Shown piece by piece: positions 5,701-23,291 of a stretch of DNA of 28,610 nucleotides. The stretch comes from a virus, in the IMG/VR virus record IMGVR_UViG_3300005453_000089, positions 1-28,610 of that record. The stretch is one strand, 5' to 3'. Made by a program: the position numbers and the translations under genes. How positions within the stretch are numbered: position 1 is the first letter of the stretch; each line of letters opens with the position of its first letter. Below the pieces are notes generated by a model. The model saw nothing but the letters and a program-made list of their open reading frames with translations, was not told where the DNA came from and ran no database searches.

Positions 5701-6202
5701 CGGACTTCGCCTGAGGTTTTCCGGCCATCCGCCGGACGGCTGTCTTGGTCATCTCTTCTACCGCCTTCCTCCCCTCGGGGTCGGTCTTGACGGTAGAATA
5801 GTACCCCAGTGACAGCAGCTTGATCATCATCTCTAACGATGCCTTTTTGGCCTCCAATGCGCCTACAGCAGCTTGGAGGATGTCAAATTGCTGTCGGGCC
5901 TCAAGGAGGTTCTTCTGGGCCTGCTGGACACGCTTGTCCTTGATGACTACATCTTGAATCCCGGCCTCAGTCAGCTTGGCCAACCCGAAAGCTCGCGGGT
6001 CCTGTCGGACCTCACTCGAGACCTGAGCTTCAATCCGCTCACTCTCAATCCGAGCCTGGTCATAAATAGACCGCGCCTCAGCCAGGAGGTTGGAGACGGC
6101 GAAGAAGTTGGTCGGCAGCCGGATGCATTCCTTGTCCAGCGCCATGGGGTCAATCCTGGCGAGTTTCTGTAGATCCTCAACGCTGAATTCGAGCTTTTCC
6201 AT
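5687..6202 (-). CDS. UvsY-like recombination mediator
   Basis: The protein is 171 aa, mostly helical, with a heptad-rich centre. The order of features matches T4 UvsY: an N-terminal helix pair, a basic/acidic helix with ESERIEAQVSSEVRQ, a conserved-looking LTEAGIQDVVIKDKRVQQAQ segment, then a C-terminal hydrophobic helix LGALEAKKASLEMMIKL-like. UvsY loads the recombinase onto SSB-coated DNA, and here it is encoded just before SSB and RecA. The start ATG is preceded by AGATAA exactly 6 nt upstream, whose TAA is also the stop codon of the upstream gene. The assignment is from pattern and context, not strong sequence identity. Confidence 0.6.
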   Translation of the reverse strand: MEKLEFSVEDLQKLARIDPMALDKECIRLPTNFFAVSNLLAEARSIYDQARIESERIEAQVSSEVRQDPRAFGLAKLTEAGIQDVVIKDKRVQQAQKNLLEARQQFDILQAAVGALEAKKASLEMMIKLLSLGYYSTVKTDPEGRKAVEEMTKTAVRRMAGKPQAKSDDNS

Positions 6203-6208
6203 GGCATG

Positions 6209-6427
6209 TTATCTGGTTTCCTGGCAGATTATCTGAGCGATTCGTTCGCGGTCTTCTTCCCCTGCGAACTTCAGTGCTGCCTCGTAGCTGTCGAACAGCG
6301 GAATGAAGGCAGCTAGACCCGAGTTCAAGGGCGCAACGGACTCTGATCCGATGACTCTCACTACGTTCCAGGGATAGGCCTTCATCACGGCCCAGTAGAT
6401 GCGTGATCCGTTGACGGTGTTCCTCAT
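6209..6427 (-). CDS. Small hypothetical protein (72 aa)
   Basis: The ATG at 6427 overlaps the clamp loader stop in an ATGA arrangement, so the longer open frame starting upstream is not the real start. The protein begins MRNTVNGSRIYWAVMKAYPW and contains FDSYEAALKFAGEEDRERIA, an amphipathic helix. No family is recognised. Its position right after the clamp loader ATPase allows the guess of a small accessory subunit, but nothing in the sequence proves it. Its stop codon (AGA TAA) forms the AGATAA box before the next gene. Confidence 0.65.
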   Translation of the reverse strand: MRNTVNGSRIYWAVMKAYPWNVVRVIGSESVAPLNSGLAAFIPLFDSYEAALKFAGEEDRERIAQIICQETR

Positions 6428-7344
6428 CTGAAAATCGCCTCCCAGCAAGCTGCTGCCAGACCGGCATGCTTCGATTCGTGGAAAGGATGTGAGAAGATGT
6501 CGATGACTTTGAAGGCTTGCGCTGCCGCTCGACCACCCCCCAGCAGAACCTTTCTGGCGTAGGCCAGTGTCAGCCACCGGATGGTTTCGGGGTCTTCCAT
6601 CTCCAGCTTCTTCAGCAGTGAAGCAGTAGTGGCCCAGTCCTTCTGGGGGGAGAAGAGTGATCGGACCAACTCGATAGCTTCCTCCTGTTGTTCAGAGGTG
6701 CTCTGAATCGCTTCGATCTGGTTCTCCTCACCCTCGACATGGAGTGCCTGCTCTAGGAGTACCAGCGCCTTCCGAGCCGAACCTTCTGAAGCTTTCGCGA
6801 TCTCATCAAGGACCGTATCCGAGAGATCGCGCTTCTCTCTCTGGAGCACCTTGTCCAACAGTACCAAAATCTCCTTCTCCGTGAGCGCTCGCAGCTTGAC
6901 CTCAGTACAGCGAGTGAGGACCGTTCGAAGCAGCTTCTGAGGATCTGTCGTTGCCAGGAAGAAGTAGACGTGATCAGGTGTGTCCTCCAGAAGCTTCAGG
7001 AGGGCATTCTGGGCATCGTTGGTCAGTTTGTGCGCCTCGTCAATCAACCAGATCCGGACCTTGCCCATCAGAGGTCGGACCAAAGAATGCCGGCGGATGG
7101 TGCGCACCGTTTCGACACCCTTGAAGTCGGCACAGTTGATCTCCAAGAAGTCACCCGGATCGCACTCCAGCTCCTGTGCCAGAATGCGAGCCAGAGTCGT
7201 CTTCCCAGTTCCTGAAGGACCTGAGAAGAGCAAAGCATGAGGCAGGCTGCCTTCTTGCAACATTTTGGACAGGAAGGCTACCGCAGCACCCTGTCCTATG
7301 ATGTCTTCGAACCGTTTGGGTCGGTATTTCTTGTAGAGTTCCAT
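6424..7344 (-). CDS. Sliding-clamp loader ATPase (RFC small subunit/DnaX-like)
   Basis: This 306-aa AAA+ protein starts MELYKKYRPKRFEDIIGQG, the standard opening of clamp loader subunits. Walker A GPSGTGKT is at residues 42-49, the Walker B DEAH is near 108, and the TRC arginine-finger motif follows. It would open the sliding clamp encoded at 9969-11012 and place it at primer junctions. A zinc-binding module like that of bacterial DnaX is not visible, so it is closer to RFC-small or T4 gp44 in layout. It overlaps the polymerase gene by 49 bases. No separate large or delta subunit gene is evident in the window. Confidence 0.93.
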   Translation of the reverse strand: MELYKKYRPKRFEDIIGQGAAVAFLSKMLQEGSLPHALLFSGPSGTGKTTLARILAQELECDPGDFLEINCADFKGVETVRTIRRHSLVRPLMGKVRIWLIDEAHKLTNDAQNALLKLLEDTPDHVYFFLATTDPQKLLRTVLTRCTEVKLRALTEKEILVLLDKVLQREKRDLSDTVLDEIAKASEGSARKALVLLEQALHVEGEENQIEAIQSTSEQQEEAIELVRSLFSPQKDWATTASLLKKLEMEDPETIRWLTLAYARKVLLGGGRAAAQAFKVIDIFSHPFHESKHAGLAAACWEAIFR

Positions 7345-8801
7345 CGGAGGAATTCCTTAACCTCACTTGTTATCTGTTTCGGGTCGTCAGGATGCACAAA
7401 GTATCCGTCTCGGAATTGGAAAGGTTGCTTTCCGTACCAGGACTTCTCTGGGTAGCAGATCTCATACTCGATCTGGGGTGCCACCACCAGCCAATCGAAG
7501 TGACGAGGCAGTTGGTGCATCGTGACATCCTCCACGATGCAGAGGTACTCTCGCAGTTCCTCTCGGACCACATCGGCCACGATGCTATCGTGGATCTGCC
7601 CGACGATCTTGCTTTGGAGCCCAGCTTTTCTCAGCCGGCGGTTGATTTGGATCAGGCTCCAGAGCAGACAGTGAAAGGCTGATCCTTGAATCGGGTAGTT
7701 CACCACAGCGTTCCGTGGGAAGAACCCCTGAACACGGAAACCAGATAGGAGGTCAAAATAGCCACGCTCTTGGTACTTCTGGTACCACTCTTTCCTCCAC
7801 CTCCCATAATCGCGGAATCGACGGTTCCAGAAATCGTCCTCGACCTGCTTTACATGGTACTCGAAGGTTCCAGGCACCGGTTCCTTCTCCATGTCACAAG
7901 CTCCCAATTCACGAATTCCCTTGTCTCGAAGGTGGTCATACAGAGACCGTCCATCCGGTGCCTTTAGGTTCCCCTTCCGAATCCAATCCCACAGAGCTCT
8001 GGCACAGGACTTGTAGAAGTCCCCATAGAATTGCGGGAAGACGAACTTGTTCTTCGCTCCGTACCGGATGTCTTTGGTGACCTGGCTGGGCTCTAGACAG
8101 TAGAGTTGAGCTGCCAGATCTCGGTGCATATCCTTCTTTGGATCGCGAATGTAGCTGATGAAATTCTCGTCCCGGTGATAGGCTGCTGAGACGACAACCT
8201 CTATCCCTTTGAAGTCGTTCTCCACCAACAGACACCCTTTGGAGGGGATGAACAGAGATCGGACCAGACGCGAAGCTTCCTTATCACGGACCGGGAAGTT
8301 CTGGAAATTCGGTGAGTCAGATGAAGACCGGTAGGTCCGGGCCGTATGGAGGTTGAACACCGGATGGATCCGCCCATCCGGTGCGATCTCCTTCTGGATG
8401 CCAAACAGAAACGTTCCCAAGATCTTTTCGATCTTTAGGTATTCACCAATCCTCTGAATGATGGGGACGTCGACCTCCTGGAGCACCTCTTCATCAACCG
8501 ACGGACGTCCTTTCTCCGTCAGCCGAGTGACCGGATACTTCAGCTCTTGATAGAGGATGTATGCCAATTGGTCACGGGAGGCGAGATTGGCATTCTCACC
8601 GAATCGCTTCCGCCAATGTTTCCAGAGTGGATCAGTGACGATCGCATGACGCAGCTTCAAGAGCCTCTGAGAAGCCTCCTCAATCGCCTCCTTCAACCGC
8701 TTCCGATGGATCCGAATGCCATTCTCCTCAACTCGGCTCAGTTCAATGGCACCATGGTGGAGGAGCTGGTAGCCTTCCTGGAGGAAAGGTTTAATCACCA
8801 T
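7296..8801 (-). CDS. Family A DNA polymerase (polymerase domain only)
   Basis: The 501-aa protein holds only the palm-fingers-thumb part of a Pol I-type enzyme. Motif A reads ENDFKGIEVVV (about residue 195). Motif B runs from RYGAKNKFVFPQFYG (about 245-258). Motif C reads GQIHDSIVADV (about 400). The catalytic Asp of motifs A and C are present, but motif C is HDS instead of the usual HDE. Proofreading and a UDG domain are on a separate upstream protein (8791-9972), which overlaps by 11 bases. AGGAG 7 nt before the ATG shows that the polymerase is made as its own chain. It would be the replicative polymerase, working with the clamp and loader encoded beside it. Confidence 0.95.
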   Translation of the reverse strand: MVIKPFLQEGYQLLHHGAIELSRVEENGIRIHRKRLKEAIEEASQRLLKLRHAIVTDPLWKHWRKRFGENANLASRDQLAYILYQELKYPVTRLTEKGRPSVDEEVLQEVDVPIIQRIGEYLKIEKILGTFLFGIQKEIAPDGRIHPVFNLHTARTYRSSSDSPNFQNFPVRDKEASRLVRSLFIPSKGCLLVENDFKGIEVVVSAAYHRDENFISYIRDPKKDMHRDLAAQLYCLEPSQVTKDIRYGAKNKFVFPQFYGDFYKSCARALWDWIRKGNLKAPDGRSLYDHLRDKGIRELGACDMEKEPVPGTFEYHVKQVEDDFWNRRFRDYGRWRKEWYQKYQERGYFDLLSGFRVQGFFPRNAVVNYPIQGSAFHCLLWSLIQINRRLRKAGLQSKIVGQIHDSIVADVVREELREYLCIVEDVTMHQLPRHFDWLVVAPQIEYEICYPEKSWYGKQPFQFRDGYFVHPDDPKQITSEVKEFLRWNSTRNTDPNGSKTS

Positions 8802-9972
8802 ATCCCATCTCTTGTCGTTGAAGCTTTGCCAGGTGCCACTCTAGCAAAGCATCCATGCCACCGTATCGGAGAAGAGTCCGTGGCTCGATCTCGGTGATCC
8901 GATTCAGACGACTCCGACCATTCCCGGTCAGGAAAGCTTCCACCTGCTGGTTGTAGGTAGGGACTCCGAGCCTCACCAGCGCCTGGAACTTCAGAGAACA
9001 GATACCTTGGCGGTTGTCCAGGACATGCGCCGCCAGCATGGTATCCCAACCCCACCTCACCACACCCCGCCCAAAGACGTGACGAGTCCAACGCTCCTCC
9101 ATCTTCAGGTTCGAGGCGATTTTCCAACATCGTTTCGAGAACAGAACCTCGGCAGTCGCAGCTTGCGTCCGGGGAGTCCAAAGGAAGGAGATGGTATGCT
9201 TCCCATTGGAGATGGCACAGGAGAAGATTCGACCCCCTGGCGTCTCAGGCTTTAGACAGTTGGTCTCGTAGTCTACCGCCACCCATCCCCCTTCCTCTAC
9301 AATCTCCCTGATTGTCTGTTCGATCTTGGCTTCATCGAAGGTGCAAACGATAGACCCGGTGTCAACCTGGGGACGGGGTCGATCTACCAGCTCAAAGGCA
9401 CTTCTGAGATGATCTAGGACGGCTCGGTCGAGTACAGGATGGTTGGCACGGAGGAGATAAGCTGGGTGATAGGTAGGACAGAGCCAGAAGTCAGGCAACG
9501 GGATCTGCCACCCAATCCAACGTTCGAGGTTGCCGATGTCCTGCCAGTAGGGGAGCAAGACACTCTGGAGTGCCGATCGTCCCAAGGTGATGACTACCTT
9601 CGGACGTAGCTTCTTCAGGACATTGTTCAGGTTGGGGTAGCAATAGAGGATCTGATCAGGTGTAGGTGTAGCGTTCCGAACCGGCCGACAGATGACCGAG
9701 TTGGTGACCCAGGTGTCCTCATCTAGGTCTACTCCGATTTCATAGAGTTGAGTTCGGAGAAGTTGACCCGAAGTGCCGACAAAAGGTCGACCTTTCTCAT
9801 CCTCAGTCTCTCCTGGGGCCTCTCCTACCACCAGAACCGAACGCTTGCCTTTCCCATAGGGAGGCATCTTGGGAGAACGACAATGCCGGTAGAGCCCACA
9901 GGCACCACACCGTGGCACGGTGGGGATATTCGCCTGATGAGAAGAGAGGGAAGTGTGGAAGAAACCCCTCAT
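8791..9972 (-). CDS. Family 4 uracil-DNA glycosylase fused to DnaQ-like 3'-5' exonuclease
   Basis: Residues 1 to about 190 are a family 4 UDG. The iron-sulfur ligands are Cys22, Cys25, Cys95 and Cys111 (C-X2-C-X69-C-X15-C). The active-site block GEAPGETEDEKGRPFVG is at residues 50-66, and the later motif reads CPTYHPAYLLR. Residues about 200-393 are a proofreading exonuclease with VAVDYETNCL (Exo I Asp/Glu), NLKMEERW (Exo II) and YGGMDALLEW (Exo III). The exonuclease would proofread for the separate polymerase encoded immediately downstream. UDG-like domains fused to phage Pol A enzymes are known (SPO1-type, from memory), but here the chain is broken before the polymerase domain. The start overlaps the clamp stop (ATGA). 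Confidence 0.9.
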   Translation of the reverse strand: MRGFFHTSLSSHQANIPTVPRCGACGLYRHCRSPKMPPYGKGKRSVLVVGEAPGETEDEKGRPFVGTSGQLLRTQLYEIGVDLDEDTWVTNSVICRPVRNATPTPDQILYCYPNLNNVLKKLRPKVVITLGRSALQSVLLPYWQDIGNLERWIGWQIPLPDFWLCPTYHPAYLLRANHPVLDRAVLDHLRSAFELVDRPRPQVDTGSIVCTFDEAKIEQTIREIVEEGGWVAVDYETNCLKPETPGGRIFSCAISNGKHTISFLWTPRTQAATAEVLFSKRCWKIASNLKMEERWTRHVFGRGVVRWGWDTMLAAHVLDNRQGICSLKFQALVRLGVPTYNQQVEAFLTGNGRSRLNRITEIEPRTLLRYGGMDALLEWHLAKLQRQEMGYGD

Positions 9973-11173: not shown

Positions 11174-12136
11174 TCAGAATCCAAAGCCTCTCCGATAGGC
11201 TATCGCATGGTCTTCAGCGATAGCAGGGTCCAATCGGTTCTCCCGTGAGGAGATAAAGTTCTCCAACTGTTTCAGGTAGTGGAGGTTCACCATACAACGG
11301 GCCGCATAATCTGTCGGGCATTCTTGGGCCACATTCATTTTCATCTCGTCCTCATCTACCCAGGTCTGAACCTGTTGCAACCAGGCATCAACCTGACTAC
11401 GAATTATCTTGGGGACGTTGGTGTAGTGGGACCATTTTTCAGACCGTTGAGGGGAATCGTTTGAGATCGCTACGAGTGTCGGGGGCCGATCATACCGCCA
11501 CCTCCCTTCTCGATCTCGTTCTGGAATCAGAATCCCCCCATAGGCAGCGATCTTGATCCAACTAGCCGAGTCCACCGACCACCAGGGGTAACGCATCATC
11601 AGCTCCCAGGAAGTCATGGCGAACCCATGCGTCCGCACGATGGGACGGTATTGGTTCGAGGCAGGACACAGCAGCTTGAACAGCCCGTCTGCCCATTTAT
11701 AGTACCCACGTTTCGCCACACCTTGGCCTAGTCCGCCCACACCGAGCAGATCGTAGCCTTTCTCAATGTACCGCTCGACGAACTGGAGCGGCGTCTGGAA
11801 GTGTACTACAGGCACAGGTCGAAGTCCATGCTCTTGCTCGAAGTAGCATTGCACCTCCCAGGTCAGTTGGGGATTCGATATCACGTCCACCGTAGCGAAG
11901 AGGAGGTCTTCATTCCGGAGACACTTCATCAGGTAGGCGTATTGATCGCAGTACAACCTGAAAGCTGACCCTTTCTTCAGAGAGTAGAACGAGAAGTCCC
12001 CTTGGGTCCACCGTCCTGGAGGGGCCTCCAATTCCCGCCCATGCTTTCCAATGCGTTCTTGGAGCTTCAGGACGTGGATGTTGTAGAGGGAGTGCGCCCC
12101 ACTATCGATGAAGAGTGATTCCGAATAGAATTCCAT
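11174..12136 (-). CDS. dpdA: DpdA-like DNA 7-deazaguanine transglycosylase
   Basis: The 320-aa protein has the layout of the TGT/DpdA superfamily. FIDSGAHSLY (Asp11) is at the N-terminus, TVDVI is near residue 84, GVGGLGQG is at 132-139, and RTHGFAMTSW precedes YPWWSVDSASW with Asp189. In this family the two Asp residues carry out base exchange. DpdA replaces guanine in DNA with preQ0 or a derivative, protecting phage DNA from host restriction. No CxCxxC-type zinc cluster of bacterial tRNA TGT is visible. The gene is coupled to folE by a TGATG overlap and lies in a run queD-queE-folE-dpdA, which strongly supports the DNA-modification role. Confidence 0.85.
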   Translation of the reverse strand: MEFYSESLFIDSGAHSLYNIHVLKLQERIGKHGRELEAPPGRWTQGDFSFYSLKKGSAFRLYCDQYAYLMKCLRNEDLLFATVDVISNPQLTWEVQCYFEQEHGLRPVPVVHFQTPLQFVERYIEKGYDLLGVGGLGQGVAKRGYYKWADGLFKLLCPASNQYRPIVRTHGFAMTSWELMMRYPWWSVDSASWIKIAAYGGILIPERDREGRWRYDRPPTLVAISNDSPQRSEKWSHYTNVPKIIRSQVDAWLQQVQTWVDEDEMKMNVAQECPTDYAARCMVNLHYLKQLENFISSRENRLDPAIAEDHAIAYRRGFGF

Positions 12137-12696
12137 CAGTGTGGTGTGTAGGCGAGAGACAGGAACTCTTGGCGAACCTTGCCATCTTTCAAGAATTCCC
12201 CACGGAGTGCACTGGTCACGGTATGGTGACCCTGTTTACAGATTCCCCGTGACTCCATACAGAGGTGACGAGCTCGAATCACCACCCCCACCCCTTTGGG
12301 TTTCAGGTGCGTGTCCAACGCATCAGCGATCTGTCTCGTCAATCGTTCCTGTACCTGAAGTCGTCGAGCGTAAACGTCCACCAATCTCCCTATCTTGGAG
12401 AGGCCGACGATCCTCCCATTCGGAATGTAGGCCACCGTCACAGTCCCGAAGAACGGGGCCAAGTGGTGCTCGCAGTGGGAGTAGAAAGGGAGATCCCTCA
12501 CGACAACCATTTCATCATAGTTCTCTCCTCCATCTTCAAAGGCTCGGAGGATCTTCTCAGGGTTTTGGTGGTAGCCTCGGGTCCATTCCCTCCAGGCTCT
12601 GACCACACGCTTCGGCGTATCCCGAAGCCCTTCACGTTCCGGATCTTCCCCGATGAAGAGGAGAAGATCTCGAATAGCTTTCTCGACCTGTTTCAT
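12136..12696 (-). CDS. folE: GTP cyclohydrolase I FolE
   Basis: FolE converts GTP to dihydroneopterin triphosphate, the entry step of the 7-deazaguanine pathway. The 186-aa length is normal. The zinc/catalytic region [11 protein letters not shown] is present, as is the later RHLCMESRG with the third zinc ligand. The segment [25 protein letters not shown] is a family hallmark. The start is ATG 12696, which overlaps the queE stop as TGATG. A TTG one codon earlier is less likely. In a phage cell this enzyme would push host GTP into deazaguanine production. Confidence 0.96.
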
Positions 12697-13397
12697 CAAT
12701 AGCCTCTCTCAGGGTCTCCACCCAACGGAACTGGAGGTTGAGAACGGGAATCGAGCTGGTCAGCTCGGTAGAGTTTATGCACTTGCCACCCAGCTCGAAA
12801 AGGATCACCGTGCTTCAAGACCCATTGGACGATAGCTCGACGCAATTTGGGATCTTTTCGGTGTCCCCACTCAGGGTGAATCCAAATCACAGGCTGGTTG
12901 GGATTCAGGTAGAATTGGGCATCCCACAGGACCTTCCAATAGAACTCGAGGTCATCGGGCGTCTCGACGATGATCTTGAACTCATGGGCTTTGTCAATAT
13001 TCTCCTTCAGTGGCAGTTTCCACTTCTTTGGAGACAATGTGATCCAGTCGACGTCCCCTTGGATCGGAAAGCCTCCGCTCGTCTCCAAGTGGATGCGTGG
13101 GATAGGGTCTCGATTCGCCTTGAGTGCCGCCACCAGCGGACGCAAGTCGTAGATGCTGGGTTCTCCTCCGGTGATCACCACTATCTCAGCTTTCGTCTCA
13201 GCGGCCTCCTCAGCCAGTTGCTGCTCGTCCATCCGCGGGACCTTAGCCGGTTTGAAGTTCGGATGCCAGGTCCCAGCCGAATCGCACCAGGGGCACTTCA
13301 CCGGACATCCATAGAGCCGAATAAAGAAAGCCCGACGCCCCAGATGAACTCCTTCACCTTGGATGGTGAAGAACCGCTCGTGTACGAAGTATTCCAT
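12696..13397 (-). CDS. queE: 7-carboxy-7-deazaguanine synthase QueE (radical SAM)
   Basis: QueE is a radical SAM enzyme that turns 6-carboxytetrahydropterin into 7-carboxy-7-deazaguanine. The 4Fe-4S motif is C31-X3-C35-X2-C38, preceded by the substrate-site start [21 protein letters not shown] motif typical of SAM binding follows. The 233-aa length is standard. It is coupled on both sides: queD stop/queE start as TGATG and queE stop/folE start as TGATG. It is the committed ring-contracting step of the pathway encoded here. Confidence 0.96.
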
Positions 13398-13861
13398 CAG
13401 AATTTGACGTTGGAGGAGTTCTTCTCGTCCTCGTAGCAGGTGACCGAAACCACCCGCACTCCTCGGCTAAAGCTGCTGGGGTTTCGGTTCAGGATCTCCT
13501 GAACGTTCCTTCCAACCCACCGAGCCAGACCTTCCATCGAACAGTCGGACACCTTCACGATCTTGAAGAGGTGGCGATTATTGGAGACTGCCTGGAACTC
13601 GGCATCCCACTTCAGGAACTTCAGCAGGAGAGGATCATCAAGGTTCAAGAGGATGGTATGGTCGAAGTTCTCATCGAACCACGCCTTGACGTCATCCATC
13701 TTGCCGACGTCCAGGATGAATCCGCATGGGTCCAGCTTGTCGGCAGTCAAGGTGACCTCGAAGTACCAGTTATGTCCGTGAACTTGAGCACAATGCCCAT
13801 CGTGTTTCGGCTGACGATGGGCGGCTGGATACGGACCGAATCGTTTCGTGATCGTCATCAT
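13397..13861 (-). CDS. queD: 6-carboxy-5,6,7,8-tetrahydropterin synthase QueD
   Basis: QueD makes 6-carboxytetrahydropterin from the FolE product. The motif C24AQVHGH30 supplies the catalytic Cys and two zinc His, and His15 is the likely third ligand. ILDVGKMDDVK and FDHTILLN match the family core. The C-terminal CYEDEKNS contains the expected Glu. The 154-aa length is normal for the family. The gene overlaps the preceding DNA-binding-like ORF in an ATGA and is the first of the queD-queE-folE-dpdA run. Two tandem ATGs occur at the start, and the first is used here. Confidence 0.95.
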   Translation of the reverse strand: MMTITKRFGPYPAAHRQPKHDGHCAQVHGHNWYFEVTLTADKLDPCGFILDVGKMDDVKAWFDENFDHTILLNLDDPLLLKFLKWDAEFQAVSNNRHLFKIVKVSDCSMEGLARWVGRNVQEILNRNPSSFSRGVRVVSVTCYEDEKNSSNVKF

Positions 13862-20014: not shown

Positions 20015-21046
20015 GTGCAATTCCAACAGCTAGTACTCCGTGATTTTCAGGCTCACTCCCACCGAGTGGTGAACTTCGGGCCGGGCATCACCACCATAAT
20101 GGGCCCCACCGACATCGGGAAGTCGGCTATCCTGCGGGCTCTGAGGTGGGCTTGTCTGAACGATTTCGCGGGAGATGATTTCGTTCGCTACGGTGCGAAG
20201 AAGGCAGAGGTCACACTGCTGGTCAAGGAAGGAGGGAAGGAATGGGAGATCCGAAGGACCAAAGGTTCTAGCCAGAACACCTACCATCTGAACGGTAAGG
20301 AATACAAGGCCTTCGGTACTGGAGTCCCTGAAGACATCGAACGACTCCTGAGACTGGCCCCCATCAACTTCCAAGACCAGCATGACCCTCCGTTCTGGTT
20401 CAGTGAGACAGCAGGGGAGGTCTCCAGGAGATTGAACTCCGTCGTAGACCTCTCCCTGATGGATGAGGCTCTGGGGTACGTGGCCGGACAGATCAGGAGA
20501 CTCCAAGAGAAGAGGACCTGGCATGAGGAGAAGTTGAAGTCCTTGGAAGCCGAGATGGTGCAGTTTGAGGGGTTGGAAGAGAAGGCCCGAGATTTTCGAG
20601 AGGCAAAGGCTCTCCTGGCTGAATGGGAGGGGGTCCAGAAGAGGCGACAATCCCTCCAATCTCTGATTGAGAACCTCCTCTCTATCCAAGATCAGGCAGC
20701 CCCACTGAAGAGATTCTGCCAGGAAGGAGAGGCGCTTCTGAAGCAGATCGACGATTGGAGAGAGAAGAAAGCTTCGGTCCAGAGGCTCAGGAGGCTGGTA
20801 GAACAGGCAGAAGAGATCCATCAGACTCTCAAAGAACCCGTCCCTGATTTGGACGAGTTGGAAGAGGCGTGGCAGAAGTTGAAGGAGATTTCTTCTCGTA
20901 AGGAGACTTTGGCCCTCTTGATTGCCAAGGCGTCTGCCTCCTTGGATCAGCTCAATCGTGCCAAAGAAGAGATGGAGAAGGCAGAAGAAAAACTCCATTC
21001 TCTCAGAGGTCAACCTTGCCCTGTCTGTGGCCAACCGTTACCATGA
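20015..21046 (+). CDS. Rad50/SbcC-like ATPase, N-terminal half ending at the zinc hook
   Basis: The 343-aa protein begins with the SbcC/Rad50 N-lobe (LVLRDFQAHSHRVVNF) and Walker A GPTDIGKS at residues 30-37. It includes a Q-loop-like NFQDQHDPPFWFSE. A coiled coil of roughly 170 residues follows, and the chain ends with CPVCGQPLP, so the zinc-hook CxxC (Cys335, Cys338) sits five residues from the stop. Walker B and the signature motif are absent here and are encoded at 22162-22752. The start is GTG, with AGATAA 6 nt before it. The SbcD gene starts inside its stop (ATGA). With its partners it would process DNA ends for recombination. Confidence 0.88.
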   Translation: MQFQQLVLRDFQAHSHRVVNFGPGITTIMGPTDIGKSAILRALRWACLNDFAGDDFVRYGAKKAEVTLLVKEGGKEWEIRRTKGSSQNTYHLNGKEYKAFGTGVPEDIERLLRLAPINFQDQHDPPFWFSETAGEVSRRLNSVVDLSLMDEALGYVAGQIRRLQEKRTWHEEKLKSLEAEMVQFEGLEEKARDFREAKALLAEWEGVQKRRQSLQSLIENLLSIQDQAAPLKRFCQEGEALLKQIDDWREKKASVQRLRRLVEQAEEIHQTLKEPVPDLDELEEAWQKLKEISSRKETLALLIAKASASLDQLNRAKEEMEKAEEKLHSLRGQPCPVCGQPLP

Positions 21047-21948
21047 AACCACTCGCCACTTTCGTCTCGGACATTCACCTCTCGCTCCATCCTCCAGCCT
21101 GTAGGATGGAGGAGGACTGGCTTTCCGTTCAGAAGAGGTACCTGGGCCAACTCAAAGAGATTTCGGAAGGATCGCCTATCTTCATCGCAGGGGATCTGTT
21201 CGACCGGTGGAACCCTCCCCCTGAAGTTCTCCATTTCGCCTTGAGGGAACTACCGGAGAACTGTTTCGCAGTACCGGGCCAGCATGACCTCCTGAACCAC
21301 CGTTTGGACCAGATGCATCGGAGTGGCTATGGAGTTCTGGTGGCGGCAGGGAAGATTCAAGATCTCTCAGGGGGGAAGGAAGAGGTGGTGGAGGGGAGAT
21401 TTCGAGTTCGGGGCTACGGTTGGGGAGAGGAGATCAGGCCTCCCTCCAATGGTCTTCCTGTCTGCCTCCTTGCGCACCGATACATCTGGAAGGAGGGGAG
21501 ATCTCACCCTGGAGCCTCCCCTGAGAACCACTATTCTCAAATGAACCTTTCCGGATACCGGTGGGCTGTCTTCGGTGATAATCACAAGGGATTCGTGATT
21601 CGGCTGAAATTTGGGTCTCTGGTCATCTGCAATTCAGGCACCTTCATTCGTCGGAAGTCAGATGAAGTAGACCTCCAACCTGCGGTCCACGTGATTGATT
21701 CGAAGTTGCAATTCAAATCCTACCTCCTGGACACCTCAGAGGACAAGATCCGTGAGGTTGCGGAGACAGAAGAAGAGAGCCACCCTCTCAATTTGGATGC
21801 TTTCATCTCTTCCCTGGAAGGTCTAGGAGAAGCAGGCCTCAACTTCAGGGAGGCGGTCGAGATGTATGTAAAGAACCACCCTGAACTGCCTTCGGGTGTG
21901 GTGGAGATGCTCCTTCACTCTTTATCTCACCATGAAAACCTTGACTGA
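21043..21948 (+). CDS. Mre11/SbcD-like nuclease (metallophosphoesterase)
   Basis: The 301-aa protein shows the metallophosphoesterase motifs in order: SDIHL (Asp10, His12), GDLFDRW, GQHD in place of the common GNHD, LLAHRY, and GDNHKG where many members have GHxH. It is the nuclease partner of the Rad50-like ATPase, cutting DNA ends and hairpins. The inner ATG at 21043 overlaps the upstream stop as ATGA. The longer open frame at 21016 lies inside the zinc hook code and is not preferred. The C-terminal helical tail could be the Rad50-binding part. It is encoded between the two ATPase halves. Confidence 0.9.
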   Translation: MKPLATFVSDIHLSLHPPACRMEEDWLSVQKRYLGQLKEISEGSPIFIAGDLFDRWNPPPEVLHFALRELPENCFAVPGQHDLLNHRLDQMHRSGYGVLVAAGKIQDLSGGKEEVVEGRFRVRGYGWGEEIRPPSNGLPVCLLAHRYIWKEGRSHPGASPENHYSQMNLSGYRWAVFGDNHKGFVIRLKFGSLVICNSGTFIRRKSDEVDLQPAVHVIDSKLQFKSYLLDTSEDKIREVAETEEESHPLNLDAFISSLEGLGEAGLNFREAVEMYVKNHPELPSGVVEMLLHSLSHHENLD

Positions 21949-22174
21949 GATCGAATACCAACGAATCAAGAAACAGGTTCAGGAGGCACGAGCCTCCTTT
22001 GAACGGGCTCGAGGGGCCTGGCAAGAGATCATGTCTCGGCTGAAGGAAGAGTTCCAGGTCGAGACGATGGAAGAGGCTATGCACCTCCTTGAGGAGATGG
22101 AAGCAGAAGAGAAGGAAGCGGCAGAGAAGGTCAACCAAGCCTACGAAGCCTTTCGAAAGAAATGGAACGCCTAA
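21932..22174 (+). CDS. 80-aa coiled-coil peptide within the split Rad50 operon
   Basis: From ATG 21932 the peptide is nearly all charged helix with heptad-like spacing, for example QRIKKQVQEARASFERARG and AMHLLEEMEAEEKEAAEKV. There is no catalytic motif or membrane segment. It overlaps SbcD by 17 bases and the Rad50 C-half by 13. Together with the roughly 75 helical residues at the start of the C-half it gives about 150 residues. That is close to the N-half arm of about 170, so it may serve as the outer part of the returning Rad50 arm. That is inference. A free-standing accessory peptide is the alternative. Confidence 0.7.
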   Translation: MKTLTEIEYQRIKKQVQEARASFERARGAWQEIMSRLKEEFQVETMEEAMHLLEEMEAEEKEAAEKVNQAYEAFRKKWNA

Positions 22175-22752
22175 GAGATTGGTTTGAGCGGCAGGAGAAG
22201 GACCTCGAGGGTATGCTGGCCCAGAGGGACCTCTTGCGCCGGCAGATCGAAGGCGAGAGGCGGGCTCTCGCCGGTGTCTCAGACCAACTCCAATATGCTG
22301 TCCAAGCTCAGCAGATCCTCCAGAGCCTGGCCCAGACAGTACAGGAGAAGGTCCACCAGAGGATTGTCGAGGTCGTCTCCGCCTGTCTCTCGGCTGTCTT
22401 TGAGGAACCCTACCTCTTCACGATCCGGTTTGAGAAGAAGCGAGGTCGGACAGAGGCACGTCTTTTGTTCGTCCGAGGGGAACTGGAGGTTGATCCTCTC
22501 ACCGCTTCAGGTGGAGGTGTGGTGGATGTGGCTGCCTTCGCTCTGCGTGTCGCTGCTCTCTCGCTCTACCGTCCTCCACTCTCTCGAGTTCTGGTCTTGG
22601 ACGAACCTTTCCGATTCGTCTCTGAGCAGTACCAACCTCGAATCCGGGCCATGCTCGAAGAGATCTCTCAGAAGATTGGGATGCAATTGGTGATGGTAAC
22701 CCACAATCCCATCTATGCCACCGGAACGGTTCTGAACCTCGAAGAAGAATGA
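22162..22752 (+). CDS. Rad50/SbcC-like ATPase, C-terminal half
   Basis: The 196-aa protein opens with about 75 residues of coiled coil and then an ABC-type C-lobe. The signature-like ASGGGVVD lies around 115-122, Walker B is VLVLDEP (143-149), and the H-loop is VTHNP (His181). It lacks Walker A, which lies on the separate N-half. The two halves must meet to form an ATP site. The SGGG replaces the more common LSGGE, a variation also expected in phage Rad50 relatives. It overlaps the coiled-coil peptide by 13 bases and the next gene by ATGA. Confidence 0.88.
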   Translation: MERLRDWFERQEKDLEGMLAQRDLLRRQIEGERRALAGVSDQLQYAVQAQQILQSLAQTVQEKVHQRIVEVVSACLSAVFEEPYLFTIRFEKKRGRTEARLLFVRGELEVDPLTASGGGVVDVAAFALRVAALSLYRPPLSRVLVLDEPFRFVSEQYQPRIRAMLEEISQKIGMQLVMVTHNPIYATGTVLNLEEE

Positions 22753-23291
22753 AACCGGTGAACTGGTGTCGAGAGGTATTGCCTATCATCACTCCAGCTC
22801 AGATCGCCCGACGAGTGAGGGAGATGGCAAGGGAGATTCGGAGAGACTACTTCGGTCGAGATCCGGTGGTGGTAGGTGTGATGAACGGGTCGTTCATCTT
22901 CCTGGCTGATCTGATCCGAGCATTGGAGATGCCTCTCCAACTGGACTTCATGAGCGTCTCTAGCTACCGAGACGGAACTTCACCGGGTGCATTGAAGGTC
23001 ACCAAGGAGATCAGTTGTGACCTCCGCAATCGTCATGTCATCGTGGTGGACGATATTCTAGATACGGGGCGGACGCTGCGGTTCATCGTTCGTACGTTGC
23101 GGCAGAAAGGGCCGGCCACCATCCGTATATGTACCTTGCTGGACAAACCGGCTTGTCGCCAAGTGAAGATCCGAGCAGACTACGTCGGGTTTCAGATTCC
23201 GGATCGATTCGTGGTAGGTTATGGTCTCGACAAGGGCGGGTGGTATCGGAATCTCAGGTTCGTAGGCGTCTTCCGAGAGTCGCCTTCTTAA
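22749..23291 (+). CDS. hpt: Hypoxanthine-guanine phosphoribosyltransferase
   Basis: The 180-aa protein has the full bacterial Hpt pattern: GVMNGSFIFLADLIRAL (residues 43-59), the LDFMSVSSYRDGT loop, the PRPP site VIVVDDILDTGRTL (97-110) with both acidic residues, and the C-terminal VGFQIPDRFVVGYGLDKGGWYRNL. It joins hypoxanthine or guanine to PRPP, giving IMP or GMP. It is translated with the Rad50 C-half through an ATGA overlap and ends the rightward operon. In this phage it may salvage guanine released by DpdA-type base exchange, which is inference. Confidence 0.95.
   Translation: MKPVNWCREVLPIITPAQIARRVREMAREIRRDYFGRDPVVVGVMNGSFIFLADLIRALEMPLQLDFMSVSSYRDGTSPGALKVTKEISCDLRNRHVIVVDDILDTGRTLRFIVRTLRQKGPATIRICTLLDKPACRQVKIRADYVGFQIPDRFVVGYGLDKGGWYRNLRFVGVFRESPS

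Follow-up and report, generated by a model that had tools for sequence, protein, structure and literature searches.

The 28,610-base IMG/VR virus record IMGVR_UViG_3300005453_000089, a fragment that is called the window below, contains four genes, A to D, all on the + strand between positions 20015 and 22752 and each overlapping the next. Together they appear to encode a Mre11-Rad50 (SbcCD-type) DNA-end nuclease in which Rad50 is divided into separate chains just after its zinc hook. The features of the locus are as follows.

20015-21046 (+): chain A, 343 amino acids, GTG start; Rad50 N-lobe, repeat arm and C-terminal zinc hook
20102-20125 (+): Walker A, GPTDIGKS, A residues 30-37; G30, G35 and K36 invariant in 73 A chains
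20462-21016 (+): arm of A, residues 150-334, about three units of 44 residues; modelled helices 146-183, 187-273 and 280-329
21017-21028 (+): zinc-hook CPVC, A residues 335-338, five residues ahead of the stop; C335 and C338 invariant in 73 chains
21043-21948 (+): chain B, 301 amino acids, ATG start; Mre11/SbcD-like phosphodiesterase, overlapping the stop of A by 4 nucleotides
21932-22174 (+): chain C, 80 amino acids; small conserved helical protein (helices 6-41 and 46-79), overlapping B by 17 nucleotides
22162-22752 (+): chain D, 196 amino acids; short N-terminal coil and Rad50 C-lobe, overlapping C by 13 nucleotides
22504-22521 (+): ABC (ATP-binding cassette) signature region, ASGGGV; SGGG is D residues 116-119
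22588-22608 (+): Walker B, VLVLDEP, D residues 143-149; D147 and E148 invariant in 54 D chains
22702-22704 (+): H-loop histidine H181 of D (VTH), kept in 53 of 54 D chains

Four chains with Mre11 and Rad50 features

Chain A has the N-lobe of Rad50. It matches the Pfam family AAA_23 (E value 3e-14), and its profile matches archaeal Rad50 chains in the PDB, with a best Rad50 E value of 2e-15. The AlphaFold model of A (mean predicted local distance difference test score, pLDDT, 89.6) has the Rad50 N-lobe crystal chain 1f2u_A as its best Foldseek match (E 2.6e-7), and VIA-align groups the N-lobes of SMC, RecF and Rad50 together with Z of 12-15 for the best rows. Two alignments of A were made, with 51 and 73 chains. 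Seven residues are invariant in the larger one: G30, G35 and K36 of Walker A, Q122 of the Q-loop, N141, and the hook cysteines C335 and C338. This alignment excludes loci L004, L025, L046 and L047 (contig-cut, partial or long-tailed), the full-length L071, the hookless L068, and L065, L066 and L070 (by the rule of the fold tool). All 51 A chains scanned match PHROG 16465 ('exonuclease'). The match of the window chain to Rad50_zn_hook (0.0013, first 30 of 52 model positions) is below the cut-off, and the matches of A and D from the window and three bacterial loci to the Rad50 and SMC models of NCBIfam are far below it.

The position of the hook is conserved. CxxC lies within the final 60 residues in 77 of 79 complete A chains from viruses, the exceptions being Microbacterium phage Magritte, which lacks CxxC, and Escherichia phage IME392, which has a frame of 926 amino acids with an internal CxxC. 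The tail beyond the second hook cysteine is 2 to 18 residues long, most commonly 4-8. No CxxC was found in the members of the C and D alignments (0 of 49 and 0 of 54).

Chain B of the window matches Pfam Metallophos (calcineurin-like phosphoesterase, E 3e-9), and the B profile matches Pyrococcus furiosus Mre11 in the PDB (3.5e-9). H12, D51, H81, H145 and H181 are each present in all 46 aligned B chains and D10 in 45, with a gap in the remaining one. Judged by the alignment, B seems to retain the metal ligands of Mre11 apart from two substitutions, N to Q in the motif GNHD and the first H to D in GHxH, the latter being found in 42 of the 46 chains and reading GDNH in the window.

Chain D of the window matches the Pfam families AAA_21 and SbcC_Walker_B (PF13558), both below the cut-off. 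Its profile has an ABC transporter as the top row among PDB chains (E 1.1e-11), followed by Rad50 3qkr_B (2.2e-11), and 1ii8_B is also matched. The signature, Walker B and H-loop of a Rad50 C-lobe are all present with the conserved residues listed above, and all 54 D chains scanned match PHROG 15167 ('ATPase').

Chain C is modelled by AlphaFold as two helices, residues 6-41 and 46-79, joined by a short loop (pLDDT 96), and likely folds as an antiparallel hairpin. A glycine, G28, and the loop region are conserved in the alignment. Comparison with PDB sequences gave nothing better than E 0.04, and comparison with Pfam and PHROG gave no consistent family, the scattered coiled-coil matches never involving more than 4 of the 49 members. 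The model gave a single Foldseek match (E 6.9) and none in VIA-align at Z of at least 2, which does not establish a new fold. Assignment of C to a known family was dropped, there being no consistent match in Pfam, PHROG, PDB or structural comparison. In one record of 98.6 kb, C lies about 14 kb from A. Its presence in viral and bacterial lineages and its ability to sit away from D mark C as a subunit of its own, additional and conserved, and not a fragment detached from D.

A preliminary description of this DNA had proposed a Rad50 divided right at the zinc hook, with the hook at a free C-terminus, a nuclease gene in the gap between the Rad50 parts and a last chain with coil, signature, Walker B and H-loop. 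These elements are all found at the locus, and the hook position and gene order recur in relatives. The pure coiled coil of 80 residues that it placed between B and D is helical and of that length, but its model has a loop between two helices.

Gene order and distribution in viruses and bacteria

Scanning with A gave 4 loci and scanning with D gave 59, and a scan with the D alignment gave 390 viral relatives, of which 80 were taken. Among 96 distinct loci, including the window, the order A-B-C-D on one strand is found in 70. This arrangement, which the preliminary description had suggested looking for in other phages, is far beyond chance. The remaining 26 loci are mostly cut contigs (BCD in 6, D in 5, A in 3, CD in 3 and AB in 2), together with ABD in 4 and ACDB, ABDC and ADB in one each. 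A and B overlap or are at most 30 nucleotides apart in 51 of 69 complete sets, and B and C in 33. Some loci have other genes inserted among those of the module. In Bacillus phage vB_BboS-125 (L065), a gene with an AP2 domain replaces Mre11 between A and D, and Mre11 comes after D; the Mre11-like frame at 5983-6960 of this locus lies inside an annotation gap where the locus tag 00037 is missing. A phage-wide tblastn search, which is a weak detector, gave records for A (9), D (6) and B (1), and two extra tblastn queries with divergent relatives gave no new phage. No RNA structure that might act as a recoding signal was seen at the A/B junction of the window (z 0.09).

When 84,980 species genomes were scanned with 14 A chains as queries, 91 cellular relatives were found, of which 80 were kept. 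According to the record titles they are mostly Bacillota: Thermoactinomycetaceae, Tissierellia and thermophilic Clostridia. A search of cellular genomes with D gave 72 pattern matches and no relative, a negative that came from the search pattern, since the search with A did find relatives. The hook is again terminal, with CxxC within the final 44 residues of A in 78 of the 80 loci and L159 (at a contig edge) and L188 as exceptions. In L188, from a metagenome-assembled genome (MAG) of Thermoactinomycetaceae, the A frame is broken into two parts of 205 and 298 codons, and a hook, CPTC, is close to the end of the second part.

The other chains are also present, D near A in 77 of the 80 cellular loci, B in 79 and an open reading frame matching the C profile beside the end of A in 75. 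The viral C profile detects bacterial C at E<1e-3 in 35 of 68 cases, compared with 0 of 68 shuffled sequences and 1 of 253 arm pieces. The commonest bacterial order is B-A-C-D, and B-A holds except in L151, L152, L214 and L229. In 50 of the 67 loci with sufficient flanking sequence, similarity to Thermoflavimicrobium proteins places recA upstream of the module and rny downstream, and in the other 17 neither is seen; neighbours identified with NCBIfam are RecA, RecX (below cut-off; one locus) and RNase Y. The conserved recA and rny neighbourhood means that the module is a chromosomal operon and not solely a phage trait. When 149 Bacillota genomes were searched, D (E<=1e-20) was found in 26, and 27 of 28 places were in frames of 155-282 amino acids, the last being in a frame of 702. 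The D tree, which contains L214 twice, has 72 bacterial chains on one side, joined by Bacillus phage vB_BboS-125 and L229 (support 0.78).

Another full-length SbcC in the genome had been named beforehand as a finding that would speak against the split. Such a protein was sought in 36 viral records, 31 IMG/VR contigs of 57-100 kb and 5 GenBank phages, none of which is classed as at least 90% complete; the window is itself a fragment. No second SbcC was seen in these records. AAA_23 has one match in 34 records, two in one and none in another, and every matching frame is 294-472 amino acids long; where there are two, the second covers 22 positions (E 8e-4). SbcC_Walker_B is over the cut-off in 0 of 36, with four weak matches in frames of 189-279 amino acids, the size of D. 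Among 24 cellular genomes with the module, no SbcC-like frame was detected with TIGR00618 (E<=1e-10) in 21. The exceptions are a frame of 1327 amino acids in Desulfofundulus, one of 896 in a Thermoplasmata MAG and one of 500, which is the size of an A chain. The same search was positive in 11 of 14 control genomes. Full-length SbcC thus seems to be nearly absent from the sampled genomes.

Arm length in steps

The arm of A, measured from D150 to the first hook cysteine, is 139-146 residues long in 19 viral chains, 179-194 in 47, 229-237 in 6 and 268 in one. The bacterial arms (74 chains) have 203 residues in 1, 249-257 in 8, 293-298 in 56, 344-345 in 8 and 438 in 1. Arm length changes by multiples of about 44-47 residues. 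A common step fits best at 45 and 46.5 residues, the resultants being 0.87 and 0.97, compared with at most 0.43 and 0.42 in 200 trials with jittered lengths. These statistics take every chain as it is, uncorrected for relatedness. The bacterial arm is also a repeat in sequence, with the best self-match of the profile at lags 47 and 94 (z 2.9 and 2.5; lags 15-109). The best self-match in the viral arm is at lag 44 and is weak (z 2.0).

Chains C and D do not follow these changes. C has 80 residues (standard deviation, sd, 6) and D has 180 (sd 15, uncertain by some residues because start codons were chosen by profile position), and their correlations with A are r -0.07 and 0.16 (69 loci). The preliminary description had taken the rough balance of the two arms as a design principle, but two arms of matching length, as in canonical Rad50/SbcC, are not a feature of the family, and the balance in the window is coincidental. 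Because the arm of A varies without C or D following, it is unlikely that the two combined serve as a plain antiparallel counterpart to the full arm. For the outer arm of A, the likeliest partner is that same arm or a second A chain; the helices in the AlphaFold model of A do not separate self-pairing from pairing of two A chains.

A probable divided complex, its alternatives and its surroundings

Rad50 is known as one chain with a coil that forms a hairpin and a hook at the apex. The locus has in common with Mre11-Rad50/SbcCD, whose counterpart in phage T4 is gp47/gp46, the Rad50-type N- and C-lobes, the CxxC of the zinc hook and an adjoining Mre11-type phosphodiesterase. It differs in that Rad50/SbcC is a single chain with the hook between two arms, whereas A stops just past the hook, the C-lobe is encoded by another gene, and there is an additional small subunit and an arm built from repeats. 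Several PDB entries (1f2t/1f2u, 1ii8 and 3qkr) contain the head of P. furiosus Rad50 with its N and C parts in different chains, A and B; these are laboratory constructs without the hook. The N/C division is alike, but the split in the phage locus is natural, and the crystal chains indicate that a divided head is able to assemble.

Mre11/Rad50 fusion proteins are reported from viruses, plasmids and bacteria (PMC3175470) and are a further case in which the genes of this complex are rearranged. The fusions join Mre11 to Rad50, while in the window these are separate genes and Rad50 itself is divided. A and D fall in two separate PHROG families, 16465 and 15167, with descriptions that do not name Rad50 halves, and the split A and D of Bacillus phage vB_BboS-125 and Microcystis phage Mvi-JY20 are annotated as 'chromosome segregation protein' and 'hypothetical protein'. 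The open-access literature searched gave no account of a split Rad50, subscription papers being mostly outside the search. The split Mre11-Rad50 is a widespread variant of a known machine that is undescribed in that literature.

We consider it probable, at about 0.8, that the locus encodes a naturally split four-chain Mre11-Rad50 DNA-end nuclease. Its parts, the conserved order and hook position, the quantised arm and the separate nature of C are apparent at the level of sequence, from which we infer the assembly, zinc binding, nuclease activity and position of C. In Mre11-Rad50, a pair of heads binds ATP and closes on DNA, and opens so that Mre11 can cut. In the split complex, A with its N-lobe, Walker A and Q-loop would join in trans with the signature, Walker B and H-loop of D to form one ABC head, and two such heads would clamp around ATP and DNA, acting as a gate for a dimer of B, the Mre11-like nuclease. 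The arm of A, a whole number of helical units of 44-47 residues, would end in the zinc hook at its own C-terminus, so that a single zinc ion might hold two A arms together with no need for a returning coil, each hook giving two cysteines. The short coil of D would pair just with the base of the arm, and C probably packs on the arm or at the junction of A and D.

It might instead be that C and D form the returning arm, antiparallel to the whole arm of A and with the hook at the apex as in canonical Rad50. The lengths in the window fit this reasonably, with 185 residues from D150 to C335 in A and about 155 in C plus the coil of D, and a distant full-length phage relative has 307 residues past CxxC compared with 276 for C and D. 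However, the arm of A ranges from 139 to 268 residues in viruses and from 203 to 438 in bacteria, in whole units that C and D do not follow, and C is confidently modelled with a loop between two helices, which makes a returning arm unlikely. A and D could also belong to different complexes, as separate genes that sometimes have others between them and that lie at opposite ends of the Magritte genome. Their motifs are nevertheless complementary, each chain holding what the other lacks, and they remain linked to Mre11, in two gene orders, in viruses as well as in Bacillota, so this explanation is highly improbable. The earlier proposal of separate Rad50 chains is supported as far as their encoding goes, and the arrangement is conserved both in viruses and in the chromosomes of Bacillota. 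Split frames usually signal decay, but 70 of 96 distinct loci keep the split point, the gene overlaps and the gene within the gap, and catalytic and hook residues are invariant. Decay or misassembly of a full-length SbcC is therefore next to impossible, and a random frameshift, against which the preliminary description had also argued, is ruled out by the same conservation.

Several observations weigh against the split complex. GQHD takes the place of GNHD in the window (21280-21285), as Q does in 31 of the 46 B chains, a change that might reduce nuclease activity. The distances of A and D are correlated (r 0.68, at most 0.23 in 500 shuffles), but any co-inherited genes would show this, and the comparison has no control with unrelated genes. 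In Magritte (L068, L069) some 93 kb of the linear record separate the halves, and the A chain is the one without CxxC, and Tunturi_5 has D but no AAA_23 match. In the locus L231 (G100, 6155-8260, -), a frame of 702 amino acids fuses Mre11 and the N- and C-lobes of Rad50 with hardly any arm between the lobes. This lineage, nearer to the fusion proteins, has lost arm and hook, which are thus dispensable in some relatives.

A more far-reaching proposal is that the module is a distinct branch of Mre11-Rad50, with an arm that is a parallel rod of two A chains built from units of 44-47 residues and held by one zinc at the C-termini, with D only completing the head and C as a new subunit. This branch would replace SbcCD in the recA-rny operons of many Bacillota and have the same design in viruses. 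The proposal is tentative and we regard it as rather doubtful.

The other genes of the window with Pfam annotation are on the - strand and include a RecA-like protein, a clamp-loader ATPase, a family A DNA polymerase, a 5'-3' exonuclease and a SNF2 helicase. With these neighbours the module fits a role in replication and recombination. A phosphoribosyltransferase gene (22749-23291, +; PF00156, E 1e-33) shares four bases with D at the stop of the latter and seems to be transcribed together with the module. DNA polymerase A is likewise divided according to Pfam (7296-8801 and 8791-9972, both -), with the polymerase domain in one gene and a uracil-DNA glycosylase domain followed by a 3'-5' exonuclease domain in the next. 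Genes at 248-952 and 11174-13861 (-) resemble by eye QueC, a tRNA-guanine transglycosylase-like protein, FolE, QueE and QueD, and may form a set for 7-deazaguanine modification of DNA.

With its conserved natural split after the hook, and an arm that shifts in length by whole units while the other chains do not follow, the module lends itself to experiments on the function of the arm and the hook. Moreover, many Bacillota that give no match to full-length SbcC gain a candidate Mre11-Rad50 beside recA, one that is missed by searches for full-length SbcC.

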